Origin: Hymenobacter oligotrophus
GTDB taxonomy: Bacteria; Bacteroidota; Bacteroidia; Cytophagales; Hymenobacteraceae
DNA: 64,000 nucleotides
Reading direction: 5' to 3'
Assembly: GCF_003574965.1 (NCBI RefSeq)
Contig: NZ_CP032317.1
Location: 1,550,001-1,614,000, forward strand
Part shown: positions 1 through 64,000 of the stretch, piece after piece
Position numbering within the stretch: the stretch's first letter is position 1
How the letters are laid out: every line of letters begins with the position of its first letter
Program-made: the position numbers and the translations under genes
The notes under the pieces: generated by a model
The model's database searches: none
What the model was told of the DNA's origin: nothing
The model's input: only the letters and a program-made list of their open reading frames with translations

Positions 1-1662
1 AACCTTGCTAACAACGGTACCCTAGGTGGCTTGGGCACGCTGCTTGCCAATGGGCCGGCCGCGCAAACGCTATCCGGCAGCGGCAGTGTTAGCGTGGGCA
101 GCCTCACGGTGGGCGCTGCCGGCGCGCAGTTAGCCGAGCCAGTTGCCATCAGCAAACTCCTGACCTTAACGGGCAACCTGGCGACGAACAACAACCTGAC
201 GCTGCTTTCCTCGGCCAATGGTACGGCCACGGTGGTAAACCTTGGCGCAGCCGAAATAACGGGCAACGCCCGCGTTCAGCAGTACATCAGCGGCGCCCGA
301 AACGGCGGTTTGGGTTACCGGCACCTAGCCTCGCCGGTGGCTGGCAGCAGCATTGCGGGTGTGCAGGCAAGCGGCCCGGCCGGTTTTGCGCCAGTGGTAA
401 ACCCGGCCTACAACACCGCTCCCCAGCCGGGCAGTGTTATACCCTTTCCGAACCTGTTTTTCTACGAGCAGTCGCGGGTAACGGCCAGCGGCCGGGGCGC
501 AGTGGCCGATTTCGACCTAGGCTGGGTTTCGCCGGGCAGCACCGCCGAATTGCTGGTGCCGGGCCAAGGGTACACCGCCAACATAGCCCCCAACCAAATT
601 ATCAGCTTTGCAGGCCAGCCCAACAACGGCACCATTGCCCGCAACGACCTAGGACGCAACGCCGCACCCCAAGCTGGCTGGCATCTGCTCGGCAACCCCT
701 ACCCCTCGCCCATCGACTGGAACCTTACCTACGCTGGCGCCACCAACCTCGAGAACACCGTGTACGTGTTCAAATCGAACGGTCCGTACTCGGGCAGTTA
801 CGCGAGCTACGTGGCGGGCAGCGGGGTTTCCACCAACGGCGGCAGCAATATTCTGCCGGTGGCGCAAGGGTTTTTCGTGCGCACGAGCACACCGGGCGCA
901 AATGGCAGCCTCACGTTTACCAACGCCGCGCGCGTTGCTGCGCCCTCCAATGCACCGCTCGAGCGCACCACCCATACACACGCGCTTGCCAAAATCAGCC
1001 TGAACGGTGCTGGCACCTCCGATCAGGTTGCGGTGTACTTCCGGGCCGGCGCCACGCCCGCGTTCGATTCGGCTTTTGATGCCCACAAGCTTTCGGCCGG
1101 TGGCAACATGCTGGCCATCGGCGACAACCCCAACGCGCTGCTTTCCATCAGTGGTTTGCCCTTGCTGGGCTCGGCTCCCGTGGCCGTGCCGCTGCTTACT
1201 TACCTAGGCGCGGCCGGCAACTTTACCCTGAAGGCCGACGAGTTATTGAACCTGCCCGCCGGAACTGCCGTGCACTTGCTCGATGCTGCCACCGGCGCTG
1301 TGGTCGACCTTCAGAAACAACCCACGTACGCCTTCGCTGCCGAAGCCGGCCTGGCCACCTCCCGCTTTAGCTTGCTTTTCACTCCGGCCCGTCCGCTTGC
1401 CACTGCAGGCCTAGGTGCACAGCTTGAGGCAGAGGTGTTTCCGAACCCAGCCCACGACCGACTTTGGATACGCTTGCCCGCGGGCAGCCAAATCGCAGAG
1501 GCCGTGCTTTTCAACTCTTTGGGACAAGCGGTGCAGCGTCAAACCATACCCGGTGGCCAAGAGCTGCGCGCCATGCCGCTCCAGCACCTAGCCCTTGGCA
1601 TATACACGCTCCACTTGCACCTAGGCCAAGCGGTAGTCGTCAAGCGCGTGGTCGTCAATTAG
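1..1662 (+). CDS. T9SS-exported surface protein, 3' part (5' end outside window)
   Basis: The frame is open from the first base, so the true start lies upstream; 553 codons are visible. The N-terminal visible part is rich in Ala, Gly, Asn, Ser and Leu, as in repetitive beta-rich adhesin-like or autotransporter-like Bacteroidota proteins. The last 80 or so residues form a type A T9SS sorting domain: the PNPAHDRLWI motif, then a short beta sandwich with LGQAV and the ending GIYTLHLHLGQAVVVKRVVVN-like strands. That domain directs export through the type IX system and attachment to, or release from, the outer membrane. No catalytic motif is recognisable. The stop is followed at once by a possible promoter for the small gene downstream. 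Confidence 0.8.
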   Translation, partial: NLANNGTLGGLGTLLANGPAAQTLSGSGSVSVGSLTVGAAGAQLAEPVAISKLLTLTGNLATNNNLTLLSSANGTATVVNLGAAEITGNARVQQYISGARNGGLGYRHLASPVAGSSIAGVQASGPAGFAPVVNPAYNTAPQPGSVIPFPNLFFYEQSRVTASGRGAVADFDLGWVSPGSTAELLVPGQGYTANIAPNQIISFAGQPNNGTIARNDLGRNAAPQAGWHLLGNPYPSPIDWNLTYAGATNLENTVYVFKSNGPYSGSYASYVAGSGVSTNGGSNILPVAQGFFVRTSTPGANGSLTFTNAARVAAPSNAPLERTTHTHALAKISLNGAGTSDQVAVYFRAGATPAFDSAFDAHKLSAGGNMLAIGDNPNALLSISGLPLLGSAPVAVPLLTYLGAAGNFTLKADELLNLPAGTAVHLLDAATGAVVDLQKQPTYAFAAEAGLATSRFSLLFTPARPLATAGLGAQLEAEVFPNPAHDRLWIRLPAGSQIAEAVLFNSLGQAVQRQTIPGGQELRAMPLQHLALGIYTLHLHLGQAVVVKRVVVN

Positions 1663-1670
1663 TGGCCTCG

Positions 1671-1678
1671 TACATTTG
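1671..1678 (+). promoter_or_regulatory. Possible Bacteroidota -7 element (TACATTTG)
   Basis: TACATTTG matches the TAnnTTTG consensus and lies 32 bp before the 1710 start. No clear TTG -33 box is seen at the right distance, so support is partial. Confidence 0.35.
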
Positions 1679-1709
1679 CCATTGTATACTTTTCTGAAGC
1701 CAATTTCCT

Positions 1710-1949
1710 ATGTACCGCCATTATGTTTCGGCCAGGCTCAAATCGCTTTTTATGCGCATTACAGTGCTTGCGCTGCTTGTGATGCTTGTGAATTCCGTTT
1801 CGGCACTGGCCCAGGGCCCTGGCACTGGCGGCCCAACCCCCAACATCCCCAATCCCCCTACCGAAATTCCGATCGACGGCGGGGTGTCGTTGCTTGTGGC
1901 TGCAGCTGGCGCACTCGGCATTCGGCAGCTAACCCGGCGCCGCCGCTAA
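1710..1949 (+). CDS. Small PID-CTERM-type sorted protein
   Basis: A 79-residue protein consisting almost only of targeting signals. Residues 15-35 are a signal peptide (MRITVLALLVML, ending in ALAQ). A short Gly/Pro/Asn-rich linker follows, then a C-terminal tripartite tail: the motif PIDGG (about residue 55), a hydrophobic helix (VSLLVAAAGALGI) and a basic end (RRRR). This tail resembles the PID-CTERM family of Bacteroidota, analogous in layout to PEP-CTERM signals recognised by exosortases. A second start at 1752 would give just the signal peptide and is equally possible. The mature protein would be about 20 residues. No exosortase gene is in the window. Function unknown. Confidence 0.7.
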   Translation: MYRHYVSARLKSLFMRITVLALLVMLVNSVSALAQGPGTGGPTPNIPNPPTEIPIDGGVSLLVAAAGALGIRQLTRRRR

Positions 1950-1956
1950 GATTTTT

Positions 1957-2015
1957 AACGGACAAGTGCCCAAAAAGGCCCGCTGGCAGCGGGCCCTTTT
2001 GGGCACTTGTCCGTT
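1957..2015. terminator. Bidirectional hairpin terminator, 29-bp arms
   Basis: The two arms are 29 bases each with one mismatch (a G-T wobble) and a one-base turn. It lies between the small plus-strand gene ending at 1949 and phhA, which ends at 2033 on the minus strand, so it can serve both. Confidence 0.85.
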
Positions 2016-2032
2016 GGGCAGCAAGCCCGAGC

Positions 2033-2770
2033 TTATCTCTGGTCGGCCGATACGGTGGCGCCCACGTTTGCGGCCGTAAGGCGCACCGCTAGCTCGGCCG
2101 TTGCGTCGGAAAGCTCGGCCCAATTGGGCAGCACAAAGTACGTCGCCTGAAACCCCTCGCGCACTACGGGCGTGGCTACCACGGCCGCTACCTCAAGGGG
2201 CTGACGTACTACTTCCTCGCCAAGGCAATGGTGCAGCTCCGAAGCCGACGACAGCAAACCGGCACCGAACACGCGCAGTTGCTCGCCCTCCTGCACCAGC
2301 CCAAACTCGGCCGTGTACCAAAACAGGCGCACCAGCTCTTGCACAGCGGCCGCATCGTGGAGGTGGTGGCGCGCTACCTGCCCAAAATGCTCGAGCCAAG
2401 TGGCCCACTCGGGGTCGGTGAGCATGGGCAAGTGGCCAAAAGCATCGTGAAACAAATCGGGCCCGGCAATGTAGTCGAACTGCTGCATGGAGCGCACCCA
2501 CTGCGTAACCGGGTACCGGCGCTCGGCCAGCAAAGCCAGAAACGTGCGGTCGTCGACGCGGCCCGGCGCGGGCACCACGTCCCAGCCGGTGTGTTGGCGC
2601 AGGCGTTGCCCTAGGTCATCGAGGTTGGGGGCAGCGTCGCGGGCGAGGCCCAGGCGAGTGAGCCCGGCCACAAACGGCGCCGCGGCCCGGCGGTGCAGCA
2701 GGGCGGTTTGGCGGTCGAAGAGAACCTTCCACACGAGGTGGTCTTCGGCAGTGAAGTGAGGGGCTTGCAT
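2033..2770 (-). CDS. phhA: Phenylalanine 4-monooxygenase
   Basis: Converts phenylalanine to tyrosine with tetrahydropterin and O2 using one non-haem iron. The 245-residue length is normal for the bacterial single-domain enzyme. The iron triad is visible: His108 and His113 in the DLFHDAFGHLP motif, and Glu155 in WYTAEFGLV. The catalytic-domain signature around residues 95-160 is intact; there is no N-terminal ACT domain, as expected in bacteria. The gene stands alone downstream of the DoxX gene, with a 180-base leader that has its own promoter and ends in an intrinsic terminator only 17 bp before the ATG, suggesting attenuation. It probably serves tyrosine supply or phenylalanine breakdown. 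Confidence 0.95.
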   Translation of the reverse strand: MQAPHFTAEDHLVWKVLFDRQTALLHRRAAAPFVAGLTRLGLARDAAPNLDDLGQRLRQHTGWDVVPAPGRVDDRTFLALLAERRYPVTQWVRSMQQFDYIAGPDLFHDAFGHLPMLTDPEWATWLEHFGQVARHHLHDAAAVQELVRLFWYTAEFGLVQEGEQLRVFGAGLLSSASELHHCLGEEVVRQPLEVAAVVATPVVREGFQATYFVLPNWAELSDATAELAVRLTAANVGATVSADQR

Positions 2771-2787
2771 ACGAACTACTTAGGCAG

Positions 2788-2823
2788 AAAAAAAGCCCGG
2801 CCTCCGTTGAGCGGAGCCGGGCT
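2788..2823 (-). terminator. Intrinsic terminator immediately upstream of phhA
   Basis: On the minus strand a 12-bp GC-rich stem with one bulge is followed by seven T residues, ending 17 bp before the phhA ATG. It may end read-through from the DoxX gene, but the phhA promoter lies upstream of it, so it more likely acts inside the phhA leader. Confidence 0.8.
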
Positions 2824-2832
2824 TAGTTGATT

Positions 2833-2951
2833 TCAGAGAAGGAAGAGTAGCTGCGGTAGCTTCATTTTCTCACATGCAACGGCACGACTCCGGCCCCGTG
2901 AATGGGCTGGACGTACAGCGTAAAATTGCATTTGATGGACTGGTGCAGCAT
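2833..2951 (-). promoter_or_regulatory. phhA leader with two overlapping mini-ORFs (candidate attenuator)
   Basis: On the minus strand a 29-codon ORF (2951 to 2862), containing single Phe and Tyr codons (NFTLY), overlaps by ATGA a 10-codon ORF (2865 to 2833, MKLPQLLFLL). The second ends just before the terminator hairpin at 2823. The layout resembles a translated attenuator, but Phe codons are few, so the sensed signal is uncertain and a different leader mechanism is possible. Confidence 0.4.
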
Positions 2952-2960
2952 GACTACCAC

Positions 2961-2990
2961 AAAAGTAGTAAGAATTTGCAACGATGCAAC
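2961..2990 (-). promoter_or_regulatory. phhA promoter
   Basis: On the minus strand TTG, 19 bp, then TACTTTTG: an exact match to the Bacteroidota consensus (TAnnTTTG at -7). The same -7 octamer and spacing occur in the trp promoter. Coordinates are approximate by a few bases. Confidence 0.7.
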
Positions 2991-3034
2991 TTCGCCTAGG
3001 TTCGAGCCAAAATTATTGGGAAAGTGCGGGCTGC

Positions 3035-5311: not shown

Positions 5312-6340
5312 CTACACCAGCTCGCGTTCAATCAGCTCTTGGCGCAGCGCGTAGGTGCGGCGCATGGCCTCCACCAGCCTTGCCGATTCGTCGAAATCGA
5401 GGGTTTGTTGGCCATCCGAAGCGGCGCGCTCGGGCACCGGCGCGGTTTCGTACAAAATGCCGTCGGCACCGGCCATGATGCCGGCCAAAGCCAGCGGGGC
5501 CACGTGCTCGCGCAAGCCAATGCCGTGCGAAGGATCGACGAACACCGGCAGGTGGGTTTTCTCTTTCAGAATGGGTACTGCGTTCAGATCGAGCGTATTG
5601 CGCGAAGCCGTTTCGAAGGTACGAATGCCCCGCTCGCACAAAATGATGTCCTCGTTGCCGCCCGAGAAAATATACTCGGCCGAGTGCAGCAGCTCCTCGA
5701 TGGTGCCCGATACGCCGCGCTTCAGCAGCACGGGCTTGTCTACGCCACCTAGGGCGTCGAGCAGGTTGAAGTTTTGGGTGTTGCGCGCGCCCACCTGAAA
5801 CACGTCGACGTAGTCGTACATCTCCTCTACTTGCGACACCTGCATTACCTCCGTTACGATGCGCAAGCCGTGCTGGCGGGCCAAACGGTAAAAGTCGCGC
5901 AGGCCAGCCAGGCCCAAACCGCGGAACGAGTACGGCGACGAACGGGGCTTGAACACGCCGCCGCGCATCAGGCGCACACCGCTTCGCACCAGGTGCTGCA
6001 TCACGGCCTCCATCTGGCCTTCGTTCTCGATGCTGCAGGGGCCAGCCACAATGCTCAGCGAGCCTTCGCCTAGGTGAATACCGTCGCCGAGGTCAAGCAC
6101 GGTGGGGTGCACGCGCCACTTGCGCGACACCAGCTTGTAGTCGTCGGACACGCGATGCACGTCGCGCACGCCGGGCAGGGACGCAATGCGGCGCAGGTCA
6201 ACGTCTTGCGGACCTAGGGCCACGAGGTAAGCCGCGCGCTGCGTATGAACCGGAGTGACTTTGAAACGCAGCTGGCGCAGTTCAGCAACCAAGGCTTCTT
6301 GTGCAGCAAACGTAAGCTGGGGGTCGAGGTGAATTATCAT
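5312..6340 (-). CDS. aroF: 3-deoxy-7-phosphoheptulonate (DAHP) synthase, type I-beta
   Basis: First enzyme of the shikimate pathway: phosphoenolpyruvate plus erythrose 4-phosphate gives DAHP. At 342 residues it has an N-terminal ferredoxin-like regulatory domain (about 1-70, MIIHLDPQLTF...) followed by the TIM barrel. Motifs of the I-beta subfamily: VAGPCSIEN, FKPRSSPYSFRG, VGARNTQNF, LLKRG and FVDPSHGIG. The metal-binding Cys, His, Glu and Asp positions appear intact. The N-terminal domain is the type that binds an aromatic end product in Thermotoga-like enzymes. It is the last gene of the trp operon, 68 bp after trpA, so precursor supply is raised together with tryptophan synthesis. Confidence 0.95.
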   Translation of the reverse strand: MIIHLDPQLTFAAQEALVAELRQLRFKVTPVHTQRAAYLVALGPQDVDLRRIASLPGVRDVHRVSDDYKLVSRKWRVHPTVLDLGDGIHLGEGSLSIVAGPCSIENEGQMEAVMQHLVRSGVRLMRGGVFKPRSSPYSFRGLGLAGLRDFYRLARQHGLRIVTEVMQVSQVEEMYDYVDVFQVGARNTQNFNLLDALGGVDKPVLLKRGVSGTIEELLHSAEYIFSGGNEDIILCERGIRTFETASRNTLDLNAVPILKEKTHLPVFVDPSHGIGLREHVAPLALAGIMAGADGILYETAPVPERAASDGQQTLDFDESARLVEAMRRTYALRQELIERELV

Positions 6341-6408
6341 GGACCGCTGATGTGGGTCTGGGGAAAGTTTCAGGTGATTGCAGAAGCCCGTTGGCCGCTG
6401 CTTAGGTG

Positions 6409-20144: not shown

Positions 20145-20244
20145 AATGTAGTTGGCAGGTCCCGGTGCCCTAGCTGTGGGCAACCACCTAGGGCACCGGG
20201 CGCCTGTCTGCCGAATCAACCACGTGTTTTCAAATTCATCGCAT

Positions 20245-21390: not shown

Positions 21391-21576
21391 GTTGCCACAT
21401 ATTTTTAGCGTGCACCGCACCTAGGGCCACTGACCACCAAGGCGTAGCGGCAGCCGCCCAAACTTTTCTGCCGCTTTGGCCCGGTATTGCAGCGGCAAAA
21501 CTAGGTACTTGACATAACCTGCCTATTTTCGCAGATAGTCCGGCTTATCCGGTTTCCCCGCAACCCAATCTGCTCT

Positions 21577-22715: not shown

Positions 22716-25535
22716 CTAGGGCTGTACTACCAAGCGGGTGGTGGCGGTGGTAGCACCGGCTTGCACCTTCACGAGGTATACACCCGGTGCAAGGTTGGCC
22801 AGCGGCACCTCAACCCCAACGGGGCCCGCAGCCTGGCGGCCCGGCAGGGCTACGCGGCGTACTTCGCGGCCTATGATGTTGAGCACCGTTACCTGCACGG
22901 GTGCGGCCGTGGGCAGCGTAAAGAGCACCGTGGCGCGCGAGGCAGCCGGGTTGGGGGCCACCGTGAGGCCAATGGCCGCTACTTGCTGTGCTGCCTTGGA
23001 GGAGGTAACGCGGGCCAGGCGGCGCGAGGTGTACACGCGGTACTCGCCGGGCTGCAGCGTAATAGTAGCGTTTACGTCGGTTACCGTGATGCTGTCGTTA
23101 GCTAGGTAGTTGTACCACTTGCCGGTCGTCTGGAACTTGGGGTTCACCGTGGCCGACACCACATCGAAGTTGCCGATAACCGCCACGTTCAGGTTCGCGT
23201 CGCTGAGGTGGATGGTTTTGGTGGCGCCGGCTACGTTCTGCACAAAGCTCGACGGGTTGTCGAACACGGCGTTGTTTTTCTTCAGCGAAATGAGGTTGCG
23301 ATACGTGTCGTAGAGTTTGCGGCGGGCCGGGTTGTTGTAGTACTCCCATAGTATGGGCTTGTTGCCCACGCGGCCGTTCTCGTCGATGCTCTTATCGTAA
23401 CCTACTTCGCCAAACTGCCAGATCATCTTCGGGCCGGGCACCGTGAAGAAGAACGCGGCAGCGGCTTCGTTGCGGGCCAGCGCCGTGTTCAGGTTTTTCA
23501 CATCGTGGCCGGGTACCTGCTTGCCGAAGCTGAGGTTCTTGAACGTCAGGCGCTCCTCGTCGTGGCTTTCCATGTAGGTTACCAGGTTCGGCTGCGACCA
23601 GTTGCGCGTGCCGTAGTAGCCCCAGCTCAAGTCCGACTTGTTGTTCTCCACGTAGCCCATGGTGGCTTCGTTGTAGTTGTGGTTCAGGTTGCCCCACAAC
23701 ATCATGCCTTCGGCGGCCAAAATCTGCTCCTCGCTGTTGTCGGCGAAGTGCTCCAGAATCACGTAGGCGTTCGGGTCGACGCTGCGGATGTGGTTGTTGT
23801 AATCCTTCCAGATGGCAATGCGCGAGTCGTCCTTCTGGCCCCACTTGCCTACGTCGCCGCCCGAGTTTACTTGGGTAAAGCCCTTCGAGAGGTCGAAGCG
23901 GTAGCCGTCGATCTTGTATTCCTGCAGCCAAAACTCCATCACGCGCTTCGAGAACTCGCGGGTGTAGGGGCTTTCGTGGTTGAAGTCGTACCCTACGTTG
24001 AAGGGGTGCGTGGCATCGGGGTTGTGCCAGGGGTTGCTGGCCGTGGGCTTGCCGTTTTCGAAGTACAGCTGCACCATCGGCGACTCGCCGAACGAATGGT
24101 TCAGCACCATGTCGAGAATCACGGCCATGCCGCGGCGGTGGCACTCGTCGATAAAGCGCTTCAGCTGGTTTTTGGTACCGTAGTACTTGTCCGGGGCGAA
24201 GTAGAACGAGGTGTTGTAGCCCCACGATTCGTTGCCCTCAAACTCGTTTATGGGCATCAGCTCGATGGCATTTACGCCCAAGCGCTGCAGGTAAGCCAGC
24301 GTATCAACGAGGGTTTGGTAGTCGTGGCGGGCGATAAAGTCGCGCACCAGCAGCTCGTAAATCACCAGCTTGGTTTTGGCCGGGCGCTGGAAGTTGGTAG
24401 CCTGCCAGGTGTAGGCGGCTTGGTTGGTTTGCAGCACCGATACGTTGCCCGTGGTTTTGCCCGTGGGGTAGGCCTTCAGGCCGGGGTACGTTACCTGCGG
24501 GATAAAGGGGTCGTCGCTGGGGTCGAGCACCTTTTCGGTGAAGGGGTCGGCGATGCGCAGCGTGCCATCAACCAAGTACTGGTAAGCGTACTCCTGGCCG
24601 GGCTGCAGGTTATCGAGCTGCACCCACCACTGCTTGCCGTCGGGGGTTTTCTTCAGGTAGCCGGCGTCGGTGGGTTCCCAATTGTTGAACTCGCCCAGCA
24701 CAAATACGTGCTGCTTGCCGGGGGCCGTGAGCACCAGCACGGCCGAGGTATTGCCGGGCAGGTAATTGATGCCGTCGCGCATGCCAGCGGGCAGGGCCTG
24801 CGTAACCACGGCCGAGCGGGCGTACACCAGCAGGGTTTGCTCGGCGGTTTGCGCGCCGTCGGTGGCTACTAGCTTTACTTCGTTGCGGCCGGGCTGAGCA
24901 ATGGTCAGCTCTTTGCTGATGGTTGCGGCGTTGGCTTCTTCCTGCAACGTGTTGTTGAGGTACAGCTTCAGGTTCGTGCTCTTGGAGGCTTCGGCCGATA
25001 CCAGCAGCTTGCCGCCGGTTTCAACGAGCTGCACGCCTTGGGCCGTGGGCGCGGTAAACCGCACCGACAGCGCCGCGCTCTGCTGCACGCTCACCAGAAT
25101 ATCCTTGTTGCCGGTGTCTTTGCCTTCGGGCGAACCGTTGGCGCCGCGGAACACCATGGCCAGCTTCAGGATCTTGTCGGAGGCCGGCAGCTTATCGTAG
25201 TAAGTGCGCGGCACGAAGGTGATGGTGTAGAGGTTCGGGTTGCTGGCGCTGCGCGTCATCTTCTCCTTGGCAATGGGCTGGGAGAAGCTAGTGCCCACCA
25301 CGGCCTTCCAGTCGGAATCGCTGGCGCTCTTGTCGGAAATTACGCCGGTCCAGATGTACACGTCGCCGGTGTAATCCTTCAGGCCACCCGAGCCTTTGGT
25401 GGCGTCGAAAGTGATAGTTACCTGGTCGTCGGCTGTGAAAAACGACGGCTGCGTGGTAACCACCTGGGCGCGCACGGTGGCTGCTGCGCTAAGCAGCATT
25501 ATCCAAAGCACGCCTAGGAGTCGAAGTTTTCTCAT
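22716..25535 (-). CDS. Secreted GH13 alpha-amylase/pullulanase-like enzyme with T9SS tail
   Basis: 939 residues. Signal peptide 1-23. Residues 25-240 are two beta domains, the second Ig-like. Residues 265-345 form a CBM48-like module (VFVLGEFNNWEPTD). The GH13 barrel runs about 385-760: region I DMVLNH (476-480), nucleophile Asp548 in GYRFDLSKG, acid/base Glu595 in VILEHF, and Asp659 in ESHDEE. The last 90 residues are a T9SS type A sorting domain (APNPAASRATVLF, LAPGVYLVKVQAG). It hydrolyses alpha-1,4 or alpha-1,6 glucan outside the cell, supplying SusCDE. A partial LacI-type site lies upstream. Exact specificity is not decidable by eye. Confidence 0.92.
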   Translation of the reverse strand: MRKLRLLGVLWIMLLSAAATVRAQVVTTQPSFFTADDQVTITFDATKGSGGLKDYTGDVYIWTGVISDKSASDSDWKAVVGTSFSQPIAKEKMTRSASNPNLYTITFVPRTYYDKLPASDKILKLAMVFRGANGSPEGKDTGNKDILVSVQQSAALSVRFTAPTAQGVQLVETGGKLLVSAEASKSTNLKLYLNNTLQEEANAATISKELTIAQPGRNEVKLVATDGAQTAEQTLLVYARSAVVTQALPAGMRDGINYLPGNTSAVLVLTAPGKQHVFVLGEFNNWEPTDAGYLKKTPDGKQWWVQLDNLQPGQEYAYQYLVDGTLRIADPFTEKVLDPSDDPFIPQVTYPGLKAYPTGKTTGNVSVLQTNQAAYTWQATNFQRPAKTKLVIYELLVRDFIARHDYQTLVDTLAYLQRLGVNAIELMPINEFEGNESWGYNTSFYFAPDKYYGTKNQLKRFIDECHRRGMAVILDMVLNHSFGESPMVQLYFENGKPTASNPWHNPDATHPFNVGYDFNHESPYTREFSKRVMEFWLQEYKIDGYRFDLSKGFTQVNSGGDVGKWGQKDDSRIAIWKDYNNHIRSVDPNAYVILEHFADNSEEQILAAEGMMLWGNLNHNYNEATMGYVENNKSDLSWGYYGTRNWSQPNLVTYMESHDEERLTFKNLSFGKQVPGHDVKNLNTALARNEAAAAFFFTVPGPKMIWQFGEVGYDKSIDENGRVGNKPILWEYYNNPARRKLYDTYRNLISLKKNNAVFDNPSSFVQNVAGATKTIHLSDANLNVAVIGNFDVVSATVNPKFQTTGKWYNYLANDSITVTDVNATITLQPGEYRVYTSRRLARVTSSKAAQQVAAIGLTVAPNPAASRATVLFTLPTAAPVQVTVLNIIGREVRRVALPGRQAAGPVGVEVPLANLAPGVYLVKVQAGATTATTRLVVQP

Positions 25536-25680: not shown

Positions 25681-26640
25681 ATGCGGCCCCTGCAACGCGT
25701 TTTTCTTTTGATTTTGGGTTGCCTGTTGGCGGTGGCCGGGGCGCGGGCACAGGTGCCGCCGGTGCGGCCCGCCGCAAACGATTCGGTAACCCTACTGGCT
25801 CCGCGCCCGGCCCTAGGTGCGGCACCGGCTCCGGTGCCCCGGCACCGCCTGCCGCTGGTAATCGGCACTTTTGCCACGGGGTATGCGGGCACGTATTACG
25901 CCCTGAGCCGCGGCTGGTACACGGGCCCGCGCAGCCTCTTTCATTGGTTTGACGATTCGCGCGAGTGGAAGCAGCTCGACAAAGTAGGCCATTTGTGGGG
26001 CGCGTTTCACGAGAGCCGCGGCGCCGTGGATTGGCTGCGCTGGGCCGGCCTCACCCCAAAGCAAGCCCTGTGGTACGGCGGCTTCGTGGGCTTTTTGTTG
26101 CAAAGCCCCATTGAGTATTTCGACGGCCGCGACCCGGCTTACGGCGCATCGGCTACCGACCTGGCGGCCAACTTTGCGGGCTCGGCGGGGCTGATAGCCC
26201 AACAGCTTGCCTGGGGCGAGGTGCGCCTCATGCCCAAAGTATCGTTCCGGAAAACCCCCTACGCCCTGCGCCGGCCCAATGTGCTGGGCAGCAACCTAGG
26301 CGAGCGGCTGCTGAAAGACTACAACGGCCAAACCTACTGGCTGTGCGCCGACGTGGGCGCTTTCCTGCCCGAGGGCAGCCGCTGGCCGCGCTGGCTGCAG
26401 CCGGCCCTGGGCTACGGCGCGCAGCAAATGCTCTACAACGACGCCGACGCGAACCGCGCCGCCGGCCTCGATGCCTACCGCCAGTACTACCTGTCGTTCG
26501 ACATTGACCTGCGCCACATCCCCACGCGTAGCAAAGCCCTACGCACGGTGTTTTACGTGGCCAGTATTTTTCACCTGCCCGCGCCGGCCCTGGAGCTCAA
26601 CCGCAAGCGCGGCTTGGTGTTGCACGGGCTGTATCATTAA
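25681..26640 (+). CDS. DUF2279 family protein
   Basis: 319 residues with a signal peptide (MRPLQRVFLLILGCLLAVAGARA) and a Pro/Ala-rich linker to about residue 55. The core has several short hydrophobic segments (LPLVIGTFATGYAGTYYAL, GFVGFLLQSPIEYFDG) and conserved aromatic/charged motifs (DKVGHLWGAFHESRG, EYFDGRDPAYGASATDLAANFAGS) typical of DUF2279, an envelope family of unknown role in Bacteroidota. Probably an outer- or inner-membrane-associated protein. Divergent from the amylase gene with 145 bp between; no functional link is evident. Confidence 0.75.
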   Translation: MRPLQRVFLLILGCLLAVAGARAQVPPVRPAANDSVTLLAPRPALGAAPAPVPRHRLPLVIGTFATGYAGTYYALSRGWYTGPRSLFHWFDDSREWKQLDKVGHLWGAFHESRGAVDWLRWAGLTPKQALWYGGFVGFLLQSPIEYFDGRDPAYGASATDLAANFAGSAGLIAQQLAWGEVRLMPKVSFRKTPYALRRPNVLGSNLGERLLKDYNGQTYWLCADVGAFLPEGSRWPRWLQPALGYGAQQMLYNDADANRAAGLDAYRQYYLSFDIDLRHIPTRSKALRTVFYVASIFHLPAPALELNRKRGLVLHGLYH

Positions 26641-26784
26641 GGCACCTAGAGGCTTGGGGCGCGGCGGGCCGGCCACCCGAACCGGTGGGGCCGCTTTTCA
26701 CGTTTCATTCGCGACCTTTACCCCTACCTGCCCCCTGGCTGCCGCCCCGCCACCTAGGGCAACCCAGACGAAAAACAGCTGATT

Positions 26785-27921
26785 ATGAATATTGGAGACC
26801 GTGTGCGCCTGATGTCGGGCCGCGAAGAAGGCATTGTTACCCGCATCCTCGATCAAAACCTGGTGGAAGTAACCATCGACGACTTTCCGGTGCCGGTGCT
26901 GCGCTCGGAGTTGGTGCTGGTAGCCCCCGAGGAGTTTAAAGCATTTGGCGGGAGCGAGTTGGCGCCTTCGCAAGTGGCTGCCCCGCGCCCACTTAAGCCG
27001 GGCAAGCCGAGCGGCAAAAACACGCCGCCCGCCGTTACCAGCACTACTTCGCCCAGCGGTAGCACGCCCGTGGCACCCAAGCCGGCGCCGGCCCCGCCTG
27101 CGCCCAAAGGCCTGTACCTGGCCTTGGTGCAGCAAACCTCGGAGCTGCTGGTGGCGCACCTCATCAACAACACCGATGCCGATGTGCTTTTCACGTTCGG
27201 CGAGGAGCGCAACGGCCAATACCGCGCTTTATCGGCCGAAAAACTTGCCCCCAAAACCGTAAGCCAGCCCCTAGGTCATCGGCACCTCAAGGACTTCGAC
27301 CAGTGGAGCACGGCCGTGGTGCAGTTGCTGCCTGTGCAACTCAACTCGCCCACGCTGTTCGAAACCCTGCTAAAGCGCGTTTCTTTCAAAGCCAGCTCGT
27401 TTTACTCAAGCCGCCGCGAGGCACCGGTTATCAAGCGCGAGGCGTTCTTGTTTCAGCTCGACGAAAAACCCGTGGCGCCCATTCCGGTGCCCACCGCCGA
27501 CGAGCCCAAGCCCGCTGCCGCCCCGGTTGTCGACCCAGTAAAGCTGCGCGACCAAATTGCCGAAAAGCTGCGCGGCGACGCCAAAACCGTGGTACCCGCC
27601 CCCAAGCAAGAGCCCGTGAAAGCCATTGTGCCCCCGTCTCACGAGGTTGATTTGCACTTGGAGGCCCTAAAGCCCGAAGGCGTCACCGAAGGCCTCAGCA
27701 ACACCGCTATTTTGGAGCTACAGGTAAACGCCTTTGAGGATGCGCTGAGCCGTGCCTTGGCCACCAACATGCACGAAATCGTGTTCATCCACGGCACTGG
27801 CAACGGCACGCTGCGCAAAGAACTGCACAAGCGCTTGAGCCGCAACCGCGACATCAAGTTCTTCGAGGAAGCCCGCAAGGAGAAATTCGGCTACGGAGCC
27901 ACGCTGGTACGGCTGAAGTAA
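26785..27921 (+). CDS. DUF2027 protein with C-terminal Smr domain
   Basis: 378 residues. The N-terminus (1-60) is a small beta barrel (MNIGDRVRLMSGREEGIVTRI) characteristic of DUF2027; a Pro/Ala/Lys-rich linker (60-110) leads to a central beta domain (about 110-240), a second linker, then a Smr domain (about 295-378) with the HGTGNGTLRKELHKRL motif. Smr domains bind or nick nucleic acid and in other bacteria act in recombination control or ribosome rescue; the role of the DUF2027 combination is unknown. Cytoplasmic, no signal peptide. Confidence 0.88.
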   Translation: MNIGDRVRLMSGREEGIVTRILDQNLVEVTIDDFPVPVLRSELVLVAPEEFKAFGGSELAPSQVAAPRPLKPGKPSGKNTPPAVTSTTSPSGSTPVAPKPAPAPPAPKGLYLALVQQTSELLVAHLINNTDADVLFTFGEERNGQYRALSAEKLAPKTVSQPLGHRHLKDFDQWSTAVVQLLPVQLNSPTLFETLLKRVSFKASSFYSSRREAPVIKREAFLFQLDEKPVAPIPVPTADEPKPAAAPVVDPVKLRDQIAEKLRGDAKTVVPAPKQEPVKAIVPPSHEVDLHLEALKPEGVTEGLSNTAILELQVNAFEDALSRALATNMHEIVFIHGTGNGTLRKELHKRLSRNRDIKFFEEARKEKFGYGATLVRLK

Positions 27922-27940
27922 GGAATTTGGCCTAGGCGCT

Positions 27941-28029
27941 GTCATCCTGAGCAAAGCGAAGGACCTTATCACGTTTGGGTAGTAATTACTATCTCGCGTG
28001 ATAAGGTCCTTCGCTTTGCTCAAGATGAC
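27941..28029. repeat. 89-bp REP-like inverted-repeat element, copy A1
   Basis: Arms of about 33 bases (GTCATCCTGAGCAAAGCGAA... and its complement, one mismatch) around a centre containing AGTAATTACT. Same length and arms as the copy at 30314-30402. Confidence 0.9.
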
Positions 28030-30444: not shown

Positions 30445-30852
30445 GTGATGCGCCGCCCCACCGCTGCGCAACCGGCCTAGGTCGGGAGCGGAGAGGAAAG
30501 TCCGGGCAACGCAGAGCACCCTGCTTCCTAACGGGAAGGACGGCGACTGGCGACGGCCGCCGGACAGCCAGTGCCACAGAAAACTACCGCCTAAGCTGCC
30601 CTCGGGCAGCCGGTAAGGGTGAAAAGGTGCGGTAAGAGCGCACCAGCGGGCGGGCAACCGTTCCGGCTGGGTAAACCTCAGGGGTTGAAAGGCCAAATAG
30701 GCCGGCAGGCGGGGCTTCGGCTCCGCAACGGGCGGCTCGTTCGTTGTCGGCGGGTAGGCTGATGGAGCCCACGCGCGAGTGTGGGCCTAGATAAATGGTG
30801 GGGCCGCTGCCCTTTGGGGTGGCGGACAGAACCCGGCTTACAGGCGCATCAC
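30445..30852 (+). ncRNA. rnpB: RNase P RNA, class A
   Basis: Catalytic RNA that matures tRNA 5' ends. The terminal P1 helix is GTGATGCGCC (30445-30454) with GGCGCATCAC (30843-30852), giving 408 nucleotides. Conserved core: GAGGAAAGTCCGGGC (CR I), CCACAGAAA, GTAAGGGTGAAAAGGTGCGGTAAGAGCGCACC (CR II/III region, in short pieces), and AGATAAATGG with ACAGAACCCGGCTTAC near the 3' end. A CCTAGG site lies inside the P-region near 30476. Confidence 0.95.
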
Positions 30853-30962: not shown

Positions 30963-31092
30963 CTAGTTCCCCTCCTCAGATGAGGAGGGGCTAGGGGTGG
31001 TTGACCATACGTTTGAGCAGCACCTAGGACTAGACTTTAATTCTAGACTTTCAACCACCCCTAGCCCCTCCTCATTTGAGGAGGGGAACTAG
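30963..31092. repeat. 130-bp inverted repeat with 42-bp arms
   Basis: Arms 30963-31004 and 31051-31092 are complementary with about two mismatches. Each arm is itself partly palindromic (CCCCTCCTC with GAGGAGGGG) and ends in CTAG. The 46-bp centre contains a CCTAGG and TAGACTTTAATTCTAGACTTT, a smaller repeat. Lies between rnpB and the cytochrome gene. Confidence 0.9.
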
Positions 31093-31114: not shown

Positions 31115-31588
31115 CTACTTCTTATTCGCAGCCCGGATGGCTTTAACCTCGGCGGGCGTTACGGCCGATGCTTTGTTGCCGAAGCTGTTGCGCACGTACG
31201 TCAGCACGTCGGCAATTTGCTGGTCGGTGAGGTGGGGCTGCGCGGGCATTACGTTGCGGTACTCTTCGCCGTCGATTTCCACGTCTTCGAGGCCGTTGAG
31301 TACCACTTTTACCAAGCGGGTTTTGTCGCCCAGCACCCAAGTGGTTTTGCTCAGCGGCGGGTTCATGGTCTCCACCCCGCCCCCATCGGCCATGTGGCAA
31401 GTGAGGCAGTTTTGGGTGTACACCGTTTTGCCGGCGGCCAGCATGGCTGCCGAAACAGCTGCCCCGGCGAGTTTGGCTTTGGAGGCGGTTGACTTGGCCT
31501 TCGCGGCCGGTTTTTGTTGGGCGGCTGTCGGGGTAGCACCTACTGTCAGCAGACCTAGGGTCGCAATAATCAGCTTGATAGAAGCCAT
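31115..31588 (-). CDS. Periplasmic c-type cytochrome
   Basis: 157 residues: signal peptide 1-23, an Ala/Lys-rich linker, then one cytochrome c domain. Haem is bound at Cys61-Leu-Thr-Cys64-His65, with Met114 (NVMPAQP) as probable axial ligand. The gene begins one base after the stop of the upstream PQQ-type dehydrogenase, so the two are translationally linked and the cytochrome very likely takes electrons from that enzyme towards a terminal oxidase. Confidence 0.92.
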   Translation of the reverse strand: MASIKLIIATLGLLTVGATPTAAQQKPAAKAKSTASKAKLAGAAVSAAMLAAGKTVYTQNCLTCHMADGGGVETMNPPLSKTTWVLGDKTRLVKVVLNGLEDVEIDGEEYRNVMPAQPHLTDQQIADVLTYVRNSFGNKASAVTPAEVKAIRAANKK

Positions 31589-45760: not shown

Positions 45761-46534
45761 ATGAAGACCAAATCAGACATCGTCAAGAACTGGTTGCCCC
45801 GCTACACCGGGGTGCCGCTCGAAGACTTTGGCCAGTACATTCTGCTGACCAATTTCATCAACTACGTAACCATGTTCGCCGACCATTTCGGCGTCGAAAT
45901 CAAGGGCATTGACAAGCCCATGCAAACGGCCACGGCCAACGGCATCACCATCATCAACTTCGGCATGGGCTCGGCCATGGCTGCTACCGTGATGGACCTG
46001 CTCGGGGCCATCAAGCCGAAAGCTGCGCTCTTCCTGGGCAAGTGCGGTGGCCTGAAAGGCAAAACCAAAGTTGGCGACCTGATTCTGCCCATCGCGGCTA
46101 TTCGCGGCGAAGGTACCTCCGACGACTATCTGCCGCCAGAAATCCCCGCGCTGCCCTCGTTCCGCTTGCAGCGTTCGGTTTCCTCGATGATCAAGAAGCA
46201 CGAGAAGGACTACTGGACGGGCACGGTGTACACCACCAACCGCCGCGTGTGGGAGCACGACGAAAACTTTAAGAACTACCTGCGCCAGATCCGCGCCATG
46301 GCCGTGGATATGGAAACCGCTACCATTTTCGTGGTGGGCTTCGTGAACGAGATTCCGCACGGCGCGCTGTTGCTGGTATCCGACGAGCCGATGACGCCCG
46401 AGGGCGTGAAAACCGCCGAGAGCGACAAGAGCGTAACGTCGAACTACGTTACTACGCACTTGCAAATCGGTATCGAATCGTTGCTGGAATTGAAGAACTC
46501 CGGCGAATCGGTGAAGCACATGCGCTTTGAATAG
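45761..46534 (+). CDS. amn: AMP nucleosidase, short form
   Basis: Hydrolyses AMP to adenine and ribose 5-phosphate. 257 residues; the phosphorylase-like catalytic domain only, without the 170-residue regulatory N-terminus of the E. coli enzyme. Motifs: INFGMGSAMAATVMDLL, ALFLGKCGGL, AIRGEGTSDDYLPPE and the purine-site AVDMETATIF. The start at 45761 is preceded by no other suitable ATG. It has no CCTAGG in its coding region. Confidence 0.9.
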   Translation: MKTKSDIVKNWLPRYTGVPLEDFGQYILLTNFINYVTMFADHFGVEIKGIDKPMQTATANGITIINFGMGSAMAATVMDLLGAIKPKAALFLGKCGGLKGKTKVGDLILPIAAIRGEGTSDDYLPPEIPALPSFRLQRSVSSMIKKHEKDYWTGTVYTTNRRVWEHDENFKNYLRQIRAMAVDMETATIFVVGFVNEIPHGALLLVSDEPMTPEGVKTAESDKSVTSNYVTTHLQIGIESLLELKNSGESVKHMRFE

Positions 46535-46586
46535 GCAGTGCACCTAGGCCGGTTGCCCACCCGGCATCGGCTTACGCCAATCCTCA

Positions 46587-53145: not shown

Positions 53146-53528
53146 GGCGTTTGGGGCGTTGGTCAGATTCCTTTTTTACCGCTGCGCAGGCCGCAATGTT
53201 ACACATCGGTGCTAGCAACCACCCGCGCTGCCTGCGCCGCGCATCTTCCTTACTACCAATTTATTGCACCGCACATCGTCCACTAACTCGGCTGTAGTGC
53301 TGGCCCATAAAGGTCTCTTCCAGCACGCGCCAATGCTCAGTGCGTGCTGGCCGCCGGCCCTAGGTGCGGCCAGGCGTTGGGCTGGCCAAGAGCTTGCCCG
53401 GGCAACACAACGCGCGAAGGCCGCTGGCGCATCGGCTCTTCGTCCGGGCACCAACGGCCTCCGCGTTGTGTTGGCCCTCGGCTGCCGCGCGCCGGCAGTG
53501 GGGCCGCCACCTAGGGCGCAGCTAGTTG
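53146..53528. other. 383-bp stretch without a gene
   Basis: Holds two CCTAGG sites (about 53361 and 53512) and the promoter region of the disordered-protein gene; nothing else recognised. Confidence 0.5.
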
Positions 53529-57302: not shown

Positions 57303-57332
57303 AAAGCCCGTTCCTGACCTAGGAACGGGCTT
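57303..57332. terminator. Terminator downstream of tRNA-Ser
   Basis: AAGCCCGTTCCT and AGGAACGGGCTT arms, with a CCTAGG at the loop base, six bases from the tRNA 3' end; A-rich on one side so T-rich on the minus strand. Confidence 0.8.
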
Positions 57333-57337
57333 TGTTG

Positions 57338-60815: not shown

Positions 60816-61628
60816 ATGTCTTTTGCTGACATCCGGCTTATTGCCACCGACGTCGACGGCACCCTGCTCAACTCCCGCCACGAGCTTAGCCCCAACTTCT
60901 ACTCCTTGTTCGAACAGCTGCAAGCCAACAATGTGGTGTTTGCCGTGGCCAGCGGGCGGCAGTACCACAACCTGCGCAGCCGTTTCGCCCGCATTGCCGA
61001 GCACGTGGTGTTTGTGGCCGAAAACGGCAGCTACGTGGTGTGGCGGGGTAAGCAGCTGCTGGTGCAGGCCCTGCCGCTGGCAGCCGTGGCCGATGTGCTG
61101 CACCTAGCCCGTCGGCTGCCCGGCGTGCAGGCAGTGCTGTGCGGCAAGCGCAGTGCGTATGTCGATTGTGGCACCGACGATTTTTTGGCCCGCATACGCC
61201 CGTTCTACGACGCCGTGGCGGTGGTGCCCGATCTGCTGCAGGTAACCCACGACGAGTTTCTGAAAATTGCTTTGTTAGACGAACGAGGCGCCGAAACGCA
61301 CCTGCTGCCGCACTTTGCACACTTGCAGGGCGAGCTGCAGGTAATGGTTTCGGGCATGCATTGGCTTGATATTGCCCACGGCCTCGCCAGCAAAGGCCGC
61401 GCCCTGGCCGCGTTGCAGCAGCAATACGGCATCGGGCCGGCGCAAACCATGGCGTTTGGCGATTACCTGAACGACCTCGACATGATGCAGTACGCCCAGT
61501 TCAGCTACGCCATGGCCAATGCGCACCCCCAGGTAAAGCAAGCGGCCCGCTACCTCGCCGCCAGCAACGATGAGTTTGGCGTGGCAGCGGTGCTCGAGCA
61601 GGTGGTGGCTTCGCTTCGCACCACCTAG
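60816..61628 (+). CDS. HAD-superfamily phosphatase, Cof type
   Basis: 270 residues. HAD motif 1 DVDGTLLNS with the nucleophile and general-acid Asp pair, motif 2 Thr and motif 4 MAFGDYLNDLDMM; the insertion pattern and C-terminal VAAVLEQVV fit the Cof/C2-cap subgroup (sugar or nucleotide phosphatases). No signal peptide. Substrate unknown. Confidence 0.88.
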   Translation: MSFADIRLIATDVDGTLLNSRHELSPNFYSLFEQLQANNVVFAVASGRQYHNLRSRFARIAEHVVFVAENGSYVVWRGKQLLVQALPLAAVADVLHLARRLPGVQAVLCGKRSAYVDCGTDDFLARIRPFYDAVAVVPDLLQVTHDEFLKIALLDERGAETHLLPHFAHLQGELQVMVSGMHWLDIAHGLASKGRALAALQQQYGIGPAQTMAFGDYLNDLDMMQYAQFSYAMANAHPQVKQAARYLAASNDEFGVAAVLEQVVASLRTT

Positions 61629-61679
61629 GCAGGCGGCCTTGCTCTTGCCCGCTTGCGCACTGCTCGGCACCTAGGGCCG

Positions 61680-62309
61680 CTACAGCAGCCCAAACCGGTA
61701 GCCCTGCCCGGCCAGCTCGGCCAGGTAACGGGGCAGCACATAGCGCAGGTTGCGGCTGGCTTTCAGGCTATCGTGAAACACTACCACCGAGCCCGGCCGC
61801 GTAAGGCGCAACGAGTCGCGCAGGCAGCGCTCGGGCTCGTAGCCGCGGTCGTAATCGCATGTGAGCACGTCCCACATGATGATGCGGTAGGCGGGCTGCA
61901 GCGCGCGGTTCAGGGCCGGCGTGATGCGACCGTACGGCGGCCGAAACAACTTCGGGCCGCTGGGTTGCAGCGCCTCAATAGCCTGCTGGCACCGGGCCAC
62001 CTCGGCCAGGTACGTCGCCTGCGAGTTCGACCAGCCGCTGATGTGGTGGTGGGTGTGGTTGCCCAATCGGTGGCCGGCGGCCAGCACTTGCCGCGCCACT
62101 GCGGGATGACGCTCCACGTTGTCGCCCACGCAAAAAAACACCGCTTTGGCCTCAAAAGCAGCCAGTTGCTCGAGTACCCAAGGCGTTTCTTCGGGTATGG
62201 GGCCGTCGTCGAACGTGAGGTACACGGTGGGCTCGGCGGCAGTTGGCCCTTGCCAGATAGCGCCGGGCAGCCAGCGCTGCATGACTTCGGGCAAACGGTG
62301 CAAACGCAT
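61680..62309 (-). CDS. Polysaccharide deacetylase (NodB-like)
   Basis: 209 residues from the ATG at 62309. NodB catalytic motifs: TFDDGP, GNHTHHH metal site, FRPPYGR, MWDVLTCDY and VVVFHDS. No membrane anchor is obvious within the frame, though the usual N-terminal anchor could lie in a longer form. Removes acetyl groups from a surface polysaccharide; the neighbouring glycosyltransferases suggest a common glycan. Confidence 0.88.
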   Translation of the reverse strand: MRLHRLPEVMQRWLPGAIWQGPTAAEPTVYLTFDDGPIPEETPWVLEQLAAFEAKAVFFCVGDNVERHPAVARQVLAAGHRLGNHTHHHISGWSNSQATYLAEVARCQQAIEALQPSGPKLFRPPYGRITPALNRALQPAYRIIMWDVLTCDYDRGYEPERCLRDSLRLTRPGSVVVFHDSLKASRNLRYVLPRYLAELAGQGYRFGLL

Positions 62310-62524
62310 GGGCAAGCAAAGGTGGTGGAGCCTGCAAAAGTAAGCAGCGGCGCTTGTCGGTGGGGCTCAGTGGCTGTGCTTGCGCCTAGGTGCCGGACTG
62401 CGTTGGATCGGGCAGCACCTAGCGCAGCTAGGGCTTGACCTACTCATTTGGCACAGGCCATACAGTGCCCGCTCGCTAATTTCAGCACCGATAACCAACC
62501 GACTGTCAGCCATTTGTAGTACCG

Positions 62525-62557
62525 TAAGCTAGTTTACTTTTTTAGTAAACTAGCTTA
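62525..62557. terminator. AT-rich perfect palindrome, probable terminator
   Basis: TAAGCTAGTTTACT and its exact complement around TTTTT, just after the GT4 stop; T-rich on the minus strand. Confidence 0.75.
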
Positions 62558-62567
62558 TTACAACCAC

Positions 62568-63704
62568 TCACTGAGCATCTACCGTGGCCTCAACTGCTTG
62601 CCAGAGCCGGCGGGCGCTTTCCTGCCAGTCAAAGCGTTTGGCGTTTTGCAAGCCTTGCTGCACCAGTTGTTGGCGGAGGGCGTCGTCCGAATCGAGTTGA
62701 ATTAGTGCTTGGGCCAGCTCTTGCACCGAAAACGGATCGGCGAGCAGTGCGCCGCCGGGGCCGGCAACCTCAGGCATGGAGCTGCGGTTGGAGGTAAGTA
62801 CCGGGCAACCGCTTTGCTGCGCCTCCACAATCGGGATGCCGAAGCCCTCGAAATACGGCACGTAGGCGCAGGCGCGGGCCGCAGCATACAGCTGCACCAG
62901 CTCTTCGTCGGCCACGCGGCCCGTGAGGTGCACTGCCTGCTGGTGCTGCATCTGCTGGTAGGCATCGAGGATGGGGCCCGCTTTCCAGGCTTTGCGGCCA
63001 ACTACCAGCAGCTGCGTTTCGGAGTGGGTTTGCTGCTTGAACTGGTCGAAGGCGCGCAGCAGGTTCACGAGGTTTTTGCGCGGCTGCAGCGCCCCCACAA
63101 ACAAGATGTAGGGCCGCCCCCCGCTGAATTGCTGCCGCACGGCCGCTTGCTCGGCGGCCGGCAGCGGACGAAAGTGGGCATCGGCCGCATTGTACACCAC
63201 GTCGATTTTGGCGGCCTCGGTGCCGTAGGTGCGTACCAAATCCTGCTTGGTGGCTTCCGACACGGCCACAATGCGGCGCGAAGCGCGCACGTAGCGCGGC
63301 GTGAAGTAGTGGTAGTATTTGCGCACCAGCCAGCCTATATCCTGCGGGTAGTGCTCGAAGGCCAGATCGTGCACCACCGTGAGGCGCGGCACCGAGGTAT
63401 TAAGGGTGGTAAAGCCGTCGGGGCTGAGAAAAACTGCGGGGCGGTGCCGCCGCAGCCAGGCCGCCACCGCCCCCTCAAACCAGGCCACAAACAAAAACGG
63501 GTGGCGCGCCGGCGGGTACAGCACGTGCGGCACCACGTTGGACCCAAACACGTAGCGCGGGTCGAAAGCCCGATCGAAGAGGAAATGAAACGTGTGCTCG
63601 GGATGCTGGGCCACGAGGTAGCGCAGCGTTTCGTACGTAAACCGGCCAATGCCTTCGAGCGCGTTGCCGGGCAGCAGAAAACGGGTGTTTACGGCAATAT
63701 CCAA
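62568..63704 (-). CDS. GT4-family glycosyltransferase
   Basis: 378 residues. N-terminal MDIAVNTRFLLPG of GT-B transferases, VVHDLAFEHYP, ILFVGALQPRKNLVNLLRAF and the nucleotide-sugar site EGFGIPIVEAQQSGCP (the E-x7-E pattern). Likely mannosyl- or glucosyl-transferase in surface glycan synthesis. It sits beside the deacetylase, on the same strand as the GT2 gene. Confidence 0.9.
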   Translation of the reverse strand: MDIAVNTRFLLPGNALEGIGRFTYETLRYLVAQHPEHTFHFLFDRAFDPRYVFGSNVVPHVLYPPARHPFLFVAWFEGAVAAWLRRHRPAVFLSPDGFTTLNTSVPRLTVVHDLAFEHYPQDIGWLVRKYYHYFTPRYVRASRRIVAVSEATKQDLVRTYGTEAAKIDVVYNAADAHFRPLPAAEQAAVRQQFSGGRPYILFVGALQPRKNLVNLLRAFDQFKQQTHSETQLLVVGRKAWKAGPILDAYQQMQHQQAVHLTGRVADEELVQLYAAARACAYVPYFEGFGIPIVEAQQSGCPVLTSNRSSMPEVAGPGGALLADPFSVQELAQALIQLDSDDALRQQLVQQGLQNAKRFDWQESARRLWQAVEATVDAQ

Positions 63705-63796
63705 GTTAAGGCGCGTTGGCTAAAGTGCTGAAATATAATTGACAGTGCCCGCCTGGGCTGACTGCTGCCCCCGTTGCGGGCTGAACTGGTTGCGCA

Positions 63797-64000
63797 TCAG
63801 CCCCTAGGTTTCAGGAGGCCGCGCAGCTCAGCCACCCGCACCACGCCGGCGGCAAACAGCAACGCCACGAACATTAGTCCGGCCACTACGCTTTCGGCCA
63901 GCCACGGCAGCGCCGCCCAGGTTTGCAGCGCGTACCACCCCGCGCACAGACCCGCAAACACGGCCAGCAAGCGGCCCAGCAAGCTCCAGGGCACGGCAAT
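63797..64000 (-). CDS. Membrane protein, C-terminal fragment (5' end outside window)
   Basis: The frame is open to the end of the window, so the start lies beyond it. The visible 67 residues contain two hydrophobic helices (LLAVFAGLCAGWYALQTW, SVVAGLMFVALLFAAGVV) and end in a basic tail (ELRGLLKPRG), as in the last segments of polysaccharide exporters of the Wzx/MOP type. With the glycan genes next to it that is a fair guess, no more. Confidence 0.55.
   Translation of the reverse strand: MAVPWSLLGRLLAVFAGLCAGWYALQTWAALPWLAESVVAGLMFVALLFAAGVVRVAELRGLLKPRG

Follow-up and report, generated by a model that had tools for sequence, protein, structure and literature searches.

Why a genome should come to carry one short word thousands of times over is a long-standing question, posed by the cyanobacterial HIP1 (highly iterated palindrome 1), and it is raised again by a stretch of 64,000 nucleotides of the Hymenobacter oligotrophus chromosome (assembly GCF_003574965.1, contig NZ_CP032317.1, positions 1,550,001 to 1,614,000), hereafter the window. 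An earlier note, made from its letters alone, had drawn attention to the hexamer CCTAGG, estimated at about 90 copies, one per roughly 700 bp, where base composition would give about 20. Both figures proved accurate: 91 copies were counted, one per 703 bp, which places CCTAGG at the top of all 4,096 hexamers for over-representation, while 20.9 are expected from base composition, 12.3 from a first-order and 11.3 from a second-order Markov model. With a maximal-order model the expectation rises to 79.9, since most CTAG tetramers in the window (91 of 157) fall within CCTAGG, as the note had also seen. The note had named a count near a Markov expectation as telling against a signature; such a value is indeed found at maximal order, and it is outweighed by the lower orders and by the relatives described below.

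The analysis shows that a word of 7–8 bp, built on CCTAGG and specific to certain lineages, at about 1.4 copies per kb, is maintained along the chromosome by a pressure on the whole word and not on one mutation type. The genome under study (G000; four contigs totalling 4,188,814 bases, with the window at C1:1550001-1614000) contains 5,678 copies of CCTAGG vs. 67 of the reversed word GGATCC, a control that is itself depleted (11 vs. 97.3 expected in the 824 kb of chromosome analysed, i.e., the window and 38 stretches of 20 kb, with a guanine plus cytosine (GC) fraction of 0.607). In the same 824 kb, CCTAGG occurs 1,154 times vs. 162.7 expected, the opposite of a restriction-type avoidance in the host. 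Density is even, at 1.15–1.8 per kb across the first 19 places sampled, with one exception at 2.80 Mb: C1:2800001-2820000 holds just 7 copies in 20 kb. This stretch, which carries genes for a grasp-with-spasm ATP-grasp maturase, a C39-peptidase ABC exporter, a HlyD-type protein and graspeptide-type peptides, is probably a recently acquired ribosomal-peptide cluster. The three small, plasmid-size contigs have 2 copies in the 82,586 bases read (40,000 of 42,169, 31,586 of 31,586 and 11,000 of 11,152) vs. 116 expected.

The high state is sporadic rather than Hymenobacter-wide. Among 150 Hymenobacteraceae genomes, G000 included, six carry 5,325–8,806 copies (the high genomes G000, G004, G025, G058, G079 and G137), while the other 144, the low relatives, carry 54–876, with intermediate counts in G149 (876), G052 (661), G123 (609) and G067 (574). 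The genus itself, with eight genomes, is divided into three high and five low members, and in a set of 395 Bacteroidota genomes G000 alone reaches the thousands, the next highest having 734. On a tree of one 806-residue protein encoded in the window (30 genomes, six open forks), G000, G004 and G025 (support 100/100) are nested within the low genus, G137 and G058 (99/96) stand beside the low G052, and G079 groups with the low G011 and G125 (85/68). Three changes of state are required, and by this one-gene tree the signature arose at least three times in the family. Close relatives with about 5,500 vs. about 200 copies, found three times over, mean that a comparison of gene sets could name the gene responsible.

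Site positions are also kept among high relatives, beyond what is seen for other hexamers, the absence of which the earlier note would have taken as a refutation. In these alignments, from which BLAST pieces shorter than 150 bp or overlapping others by more than 20% were left out, 71 of 103 sites were retained in G004 and 60 of 78 in G025, compared to 308/615 and 234/515 (45–50%) for 23 control hexamers of our own choice. The picture was reversed in three of the five low genomes of the genus, where 0/55 (G035), 0/58 (G015) and 1/62 (G020) sites were present, 1/175 in total, vs. 112/361, 101/375 and 107/376 for the control hexamers. CCTAGG is depleted about tenfold in three low relatives (5 vs. 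59.8 expected in 300 kb), whereas the high genomes are enriched about sevenfold.

Within genes, sites arise mostly through synonymous codons. Genes were called with a simple script written for this analysis, on which the coding and intergenic counts rest, and intergenic totals depend on the rule applied (430 sites lie not wholly within a gene; 379 touch no gene). As the earlier note had perceived, a single reading phase, nnC-CTA-GGn, is used by nearly all sites (662 of the 724 wholly within called genes, the other 62 being CCT-AGG), and a rare codon is bought for the motif: CTA makes up 7.2% of 24,198 leucine (Leu) codons but 60.7% of the 1,091 Leu codons followed by glycine (Gly) in NNC-Leu-Gly. 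When NNC-CTN-GGN positions were sorted by the base before and after the hexamer, occupancy was high in A..G (101/111), C..T (218/245) and G..T (102/126), and weaker in A..C (129/193), G..C (26/115) and T..C (3/33). Occupancy thus tracks the octamer, and therefore the preceding codon and the Gly codon both count. Because the signature alters which Leu and Gly codons are used, it affects any codon or composition statistic in these genomes.

A pure codon preference was rejected on these shares of CTA (61% vs. 7%) and on the density of sites, which is higher still between genes (2.77 per kb vs. 1.08 in coding DNA). Amino-acid replacement was also rejected as the main route, since Leu-Gly at sites is retained in three low relatives (26/38, 27/37 and 26/41) nearly like other Leu-Gly pairs (40/55, 37/46 and 44/62); two further low genomes had fewer than six sites each. 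The avoidance in highly expressed genes that had been read from the window is weakly supported: the five genes checked have few usable NNC-CTN-GGN positions (four in the susC-like, one in the susD-like, none in the gene at 22716-25499, three in ald and one in the amn-like gene), and across fifths of genes ranked by CTG use, a crude proxy of expression, occupancy falls slightly, from 0.71 in the lowest to 0.60 in the highest.

Between genes, 307 copies of the word were counted, compared to 277 for all its 21 one-base neighbours together (mean 13, maximum 36), on average an approximately 23-fold preference. This bears on the proposal that mutation bias creates the word, either by deamination of methylated C (CCCAGG to CCTAGG) or through a Vsr-like mismatch endonuclease. 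In line with such a bias, the words most often aligned with sites in low relatives, namely CCCAGG and CCTGGG (15/55 in G035), are one transition off; yet CCTG is also the commonest start of a Leu codon, so synonymous change predicts the same words. Further, neighbours that differ by a transversion are as scarce as those that differ by a transition (at intergenic position 4: C 21, G 19 and T 13 vs. A 307), CCCAGG is not depleted (391 vs. 377 expected in 464 kb of G000), and the C5-methyltransferase family (PF00145) was unmatched in G000, G025, G058 and G137. Mutation bias is thus already contradicted and hardly credible, and the suggestion of a mismatch-specific repair target is disfavoured by the equal scarcity of transversion and transition neighbours. 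We are satisfied that codon preference and mismatch-specific mutation are both excluded.

The unit under pressure in G000 is not the bare palindrome that the earlier note had assumed. Over 464 kb, the flanked forms ACCTAGGG (311 vs. 7.9 expected) and ACCTAGGC (189 vs. 16.3) are strongly enriched, followed by ACCTAGGA (33 vs. 3.7) and ACCTAGGT (16 vs. 4.0), while GCCTAGGC (15 vs. 16.6), GCCTAGGG (25 vs. 16.1) and CCCTAGGG (4 vs. 3.9) lie near expectation, and SCCTAGGS, where S is G or C, is about as frequent as expected (44 vs. 36.6). Palindromic forms are minor here, as ACCTAGGT (16) and GCCTAGGC (15) compare with 311 for ACCTAGGG; palindromes prevail in G058 (CCCTAGGG) and G079 (ACCTAGGT). 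The driven word in G000 is therefore an asymmetric, directional ACCTAGG[GC], and it has a distant second contact. Counted from sites oriented by their A (n = 1,013), TGCC is found at position -26 in 100 (expected 7.8) and CTAG at position -31 in 38 (expected 2.3). In addition, the 824 kb contain 15 inverted pairs CCTAGGT..ACCTAGG spaced at exactly 33 bp, the next class of orientation and gap having three members. As the spacers of these pairs vary and their arms are GGCACCTAGG-like, they resemble a binding site of about 39 bp and not a copied repeat. To judge from these patterns, the word looks like a binding site in double-stranded DNA with contacts over about 39 bp, formed by inverted GGCACCTAGG half-sites with a spacing of 33 bp. 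The distal contact is claimed for the ACCTAGG[GC] dialect alone, because signals were weak in G058 (TTT at -16, 23 vs. 4.5 expected) and G137, and a control hexamer had scattered distal signals of similar information content.

A short, dense word that would favour recombination of the DNA bearing it also calls to mind a Chi-like signal for a RecBCD/AddAB-type enzyme. However, ACCTAGGS is found 2,350 times forward and 2,332 times reverse in the genome, with no steady strand or replichore bias and with mixed orientation in every sampled stretch. A partner contact 26 bp away would be odd for single-strand reading by a translocating enzyme, and genus-wide presence would be expected, whereas five of eight genomes are without the high state. 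We regard a Chi-like signal as very unlikely.

The anatomy of a binding site, with its helically distant partner and inverted pairs, speaks for a chromosome-wide site for an architectural or repair protein (nucleoid-associated, or involved in topology or segregation), acquired in the high lineages and maintained by very weak direct selection at each site. The equal pressure on transitions and transversions agrees with it, as does the excess at gene ends, where density reaches 6.15 per kb within 30 bp downstream of stop codons vs. 1.56 in the 30 bp upstream of starts, and is 4.27, 2.67 and 2.23 per kb between convergent, tandem and divergent genes, respectively. Spacing between sites is near random by gap statistics, with a weak effect: in a permutation test without the motif-poor stretch C1:2800001-2820000, occupancy was mildly reduced less than 100 bp from another site (z = -2.7, -1.7 and -2.2) and raised at 200–400 bp (z = 2.1). 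On the other hand, no such protein was found, and the lack of strand or replichore bias does not favour one; the 23-fold preference at thousands of sites would demand a steady small benefit at nearly each of them, and the absence of the word from plasmid-size contigs would have to be ascribed to recent arrival. An architectural or repair site is a possible explanation, though less likely than not.

The high genomes further differ in how the common core is flanked, the dialects being ACCTAGG[GC], CCCTAGGG, ACCTAGGT and a looser NCCTAGGN (counts over 220–240 kb of each genome). In G058, 331 CCTAGG include 160 CCCTAGGG and 103 CCCTAGGC; in G079, 124 of 236 are ACCTAGGT, and AGCTAGGT/ACCTAGCT brings 93 more; and in G137, the 397 sites include ACCTAGGG (127), ACCTAGGC (95), CCCTAGGC (39), ACCTAGGA (37) and CCCTAGGG (33). 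On the tree G137 groups with G058 as its sister, and so the spelling changed inside a high clade.

No CCTAGG-like word was found in the 20–45 kb sampled from each of 19 low genomes, two of which had other AT-rich palindromes. In G002, of another genus of the family (C1:1-20000, 54% GC), TATATA occurs 34 times in 20 kb, vs. 1.4 expected at first and 8.2 at second order, and is perhaps another lineage-specific iterated palindrome. GTATAC stands at 6–10 times its first-order expectation, about one per kb, in four Pontibacter contigs; at just 0.7–3 times its one-base neighbours, it is weaker than CCTAGG. Within genus g5, many genomes have 0–15 copies of GGATCC while others have 100–300, a sporadic scarcity that looks like a restriction-avoidance signature.

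Methylation, which the earlier note had also entertained, would make the word a HIP1-type target as in Elhai's model, in which methyl-directed mismatch repair favours a word that an orphan methyltransferase recognises. The nearest published precedent speaks for it, namely the sporadic alternative HIPs among related cyanobacterial genomes, each with a matching methyltransferase in all of Elhai's cases (PMC4390886). Profile searches in 12 genomes per family (PF00145, PF01555, PF02384 and PF07669) nevertheless gave no family common to G000 and G025, two genomes of one dialect, although PF02086, MT-A70 and MmeI profiles lay outside these searches and weak matches may be missed. Besides PF00145, among the high genomes PF01555 was not found in G000 and G079, PF02384 was not found in G025, and PF07669 had no match in G025 and just a weak, sub-cut-off one in G000. 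Weak Eco57I-family matches in long frames were detected in the high G000, G004, G058 and G137, that of G000 being an MmeI-like single-chain restriction-modification enzyme (C1, near 2004976); similar ones are found in the low G015, G030 and G035. The only PF01555 enzyme of G025, an N6/N4 methyltransferase, adjoins a gene for a SmaI-type endonuclease (G025:C4, around 5622-6341). In 160 kb of G025, CCCGGG occurs 18 times vs. 67.6 expected, and it is low in G000 and G004 too. A methylation target is thus unsupported by gene content so far, and we consider this model rather unlikely.

The explanation that we rank first, at a probability of roughly one in three, is that the word serves in the recognition of self-DNA and is spread by recombination. 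Each high lineage would have gained or re-tuned a DNA-binding protein specific for this sequence, which would read it as a sign of own DNA; fragments bearing the word would be preferentially taken up, protected or recombined, and alleles containing it would displace those that do not. This would parallel the DNA uptake sequences of Neisseriaceae and Pasteurellaceae, here with a machinery that lacks type IV pili. This ranking rests on the close likeness to the dialects of uptake sequences (PMC3630211) and on the self-preferring competence without pili described in the phylum (PMC8459023, PMC7965970). Counted in its favour are the density and uniformity of the word, its sporadic state and its dialects around one core, a drive independent of mutation type, the keeping of positions, the distal contact and the 33-bp inverted pairs. 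To these we add the scarcity on plasmid-size contigs and in the peptide island, the excess after stops and in hairpins (perfect stems of at least 7 bp enclose 18/379 intergenic sites vs. 84/5,850 random intergenic places), and the presence of ComEC (PF03772) in 30/30 genomes. If the word is such a signal, it would reveal the means by which pilus-less Bacteroidota distinguish own from foreign DNA. The wider claim must be held a little more loosely: that Bacteroidota would have here their first sequence for DNA self-recognition (in uptake or recombination), read in double-stranded DNA by a fast-evolving protein that works without pili and was gained three or more times within the one family, with dialects that would serve as barriers between species.

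Several observations weigh against self-recognition. The reading protein was not found, and the neighbourhood of comEC yielded no candidate for it. The type II/IV secretion and pilus ATPase PF00437 was matched in 0/24 genomes (controls 14/14 found, 13 of them over the cut-off), so that none of the classical machines for uptake sequences is at hand. The low genomes have ComEC as well, which therefore does not track the signature. Uptake sequences are not known to be palindromic, whereas most CCTAGG dialects are. Finally, plain selection for a chromosomal binding site would account just as well for the drive itself and for the scarcity in mobile DNA, and the mild drop in occupancy less than 100 bp from another site is not specific to self-recognition.

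The window illustrates these features site by site. Of its 91 copies, 74 are ACCTAGG[CG] or its reverse complement, six are of the ACCTAGGA type, three are ACCTAGGT and eight are without such a flanking A or T; A-CCTAGG-C at 516-521 (forward strand) and C-CCTAGG-T at 2610-2615 (reverse strand) exemplify the two orientations of the main word. The six sites that had been placed at stops and gene ends were all located within 2 bp of the positions given: near a gene end at 20187-20192 (given as 20189), between called genes at 21420-21425 (21419), between the genes 25681-26640 and 26785-27921 at 26753-26758, between rnpB and the gene 31115-31588 at 31023-31028, 9 bp beyond the stop of the gene 45761-46534 at 46543-46548 (46541), and between the genes 60816-61628 and 61680-62282 at 61670-61675 (61672). 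The site reported inside rnpB was likewise confirmed, at 30476-30481, within the match to RNase P RNA (Rfam RF00010, 30445-30856, forward strand). One site (57318) lies in the loop of a perfect, terminator-like 10-bp stem (57303-57333), and another (53359) within a perfect 8-bp stem at 53348-53374, coordinates counted from the stem and the site position. The 2.8-kb gene at 22716-25499 (reverse strand) contains no CCTAGG. The sequence GTCATCCTGAG, which follows the site at 27931 (27931-27960) and is found at similar places, is presumably a dispersed intergenic repeat of the group.

In searches of the open full-text literature, with subscription papers outside, no description of a CCTAGG signature in Hymenobacter or Bacteroidetes was found in the titles and abstract openings; one of the papers matched concerns a Thermanaerosceptrum methylome. 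AvrII-type restriction-modification systems recognise CCTAGG and so share the core word; unlike them, in that restriction would deplete the word, the high genomes are enriched. The nearest precedent is that of the HIPs, which are also short words occurring genome-wide at about 0.5–2.5 per kb, in coding and non-coding DNA and with sporadic alternatives (PMC4390886). The comparison with HIP1 made in the earlier note is thus borne out for density, conservation of position and a drive acting in coding and non-coding DNA alike. What changes in the picture given there is the nature of the word, which is directional in G000 and has a distant partner, together with its sporadic occurrence and its dialects. 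CCTAGG further differs from the HIPs in phylum and word, and in that none of the four methyltransferase families is common to G000 and G025.

Within the phylum, Riemerella offers a parallel in natural transformation, with ComEC present and no homologues of pili (PMC7965970, PMC8459023). Riemerella is competent, no pilus homologue having been found, and outer-membrane proteins of unknown kind take part (PMC8459023), while R. columbina prefers its own DNA (PMC7965970). Unlike the case described here, no comparable word is reported to have been identified there, the top k-mers given being runs of A/T.

The DNA uptake sequences (DUS) of Neisseriaceae and the uptake signal sequences (USS) of Pasteurellaceae differ from CCTAGG in several respects, as the CCTAGG genomes are without the type IV pilus ATPase, the core is palindromic in most dialects, and the high state is sporadic within a genus. 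They nevertheless resemble it in being present in thousands of copies, at about one per kb, and in having dialects that share a fixed core, which is a conserved CTG in the DUS (PMC3630211), and CCTAGG shares with them an excess at gene ends and terminators and a scarcity in newly arrived DNA.

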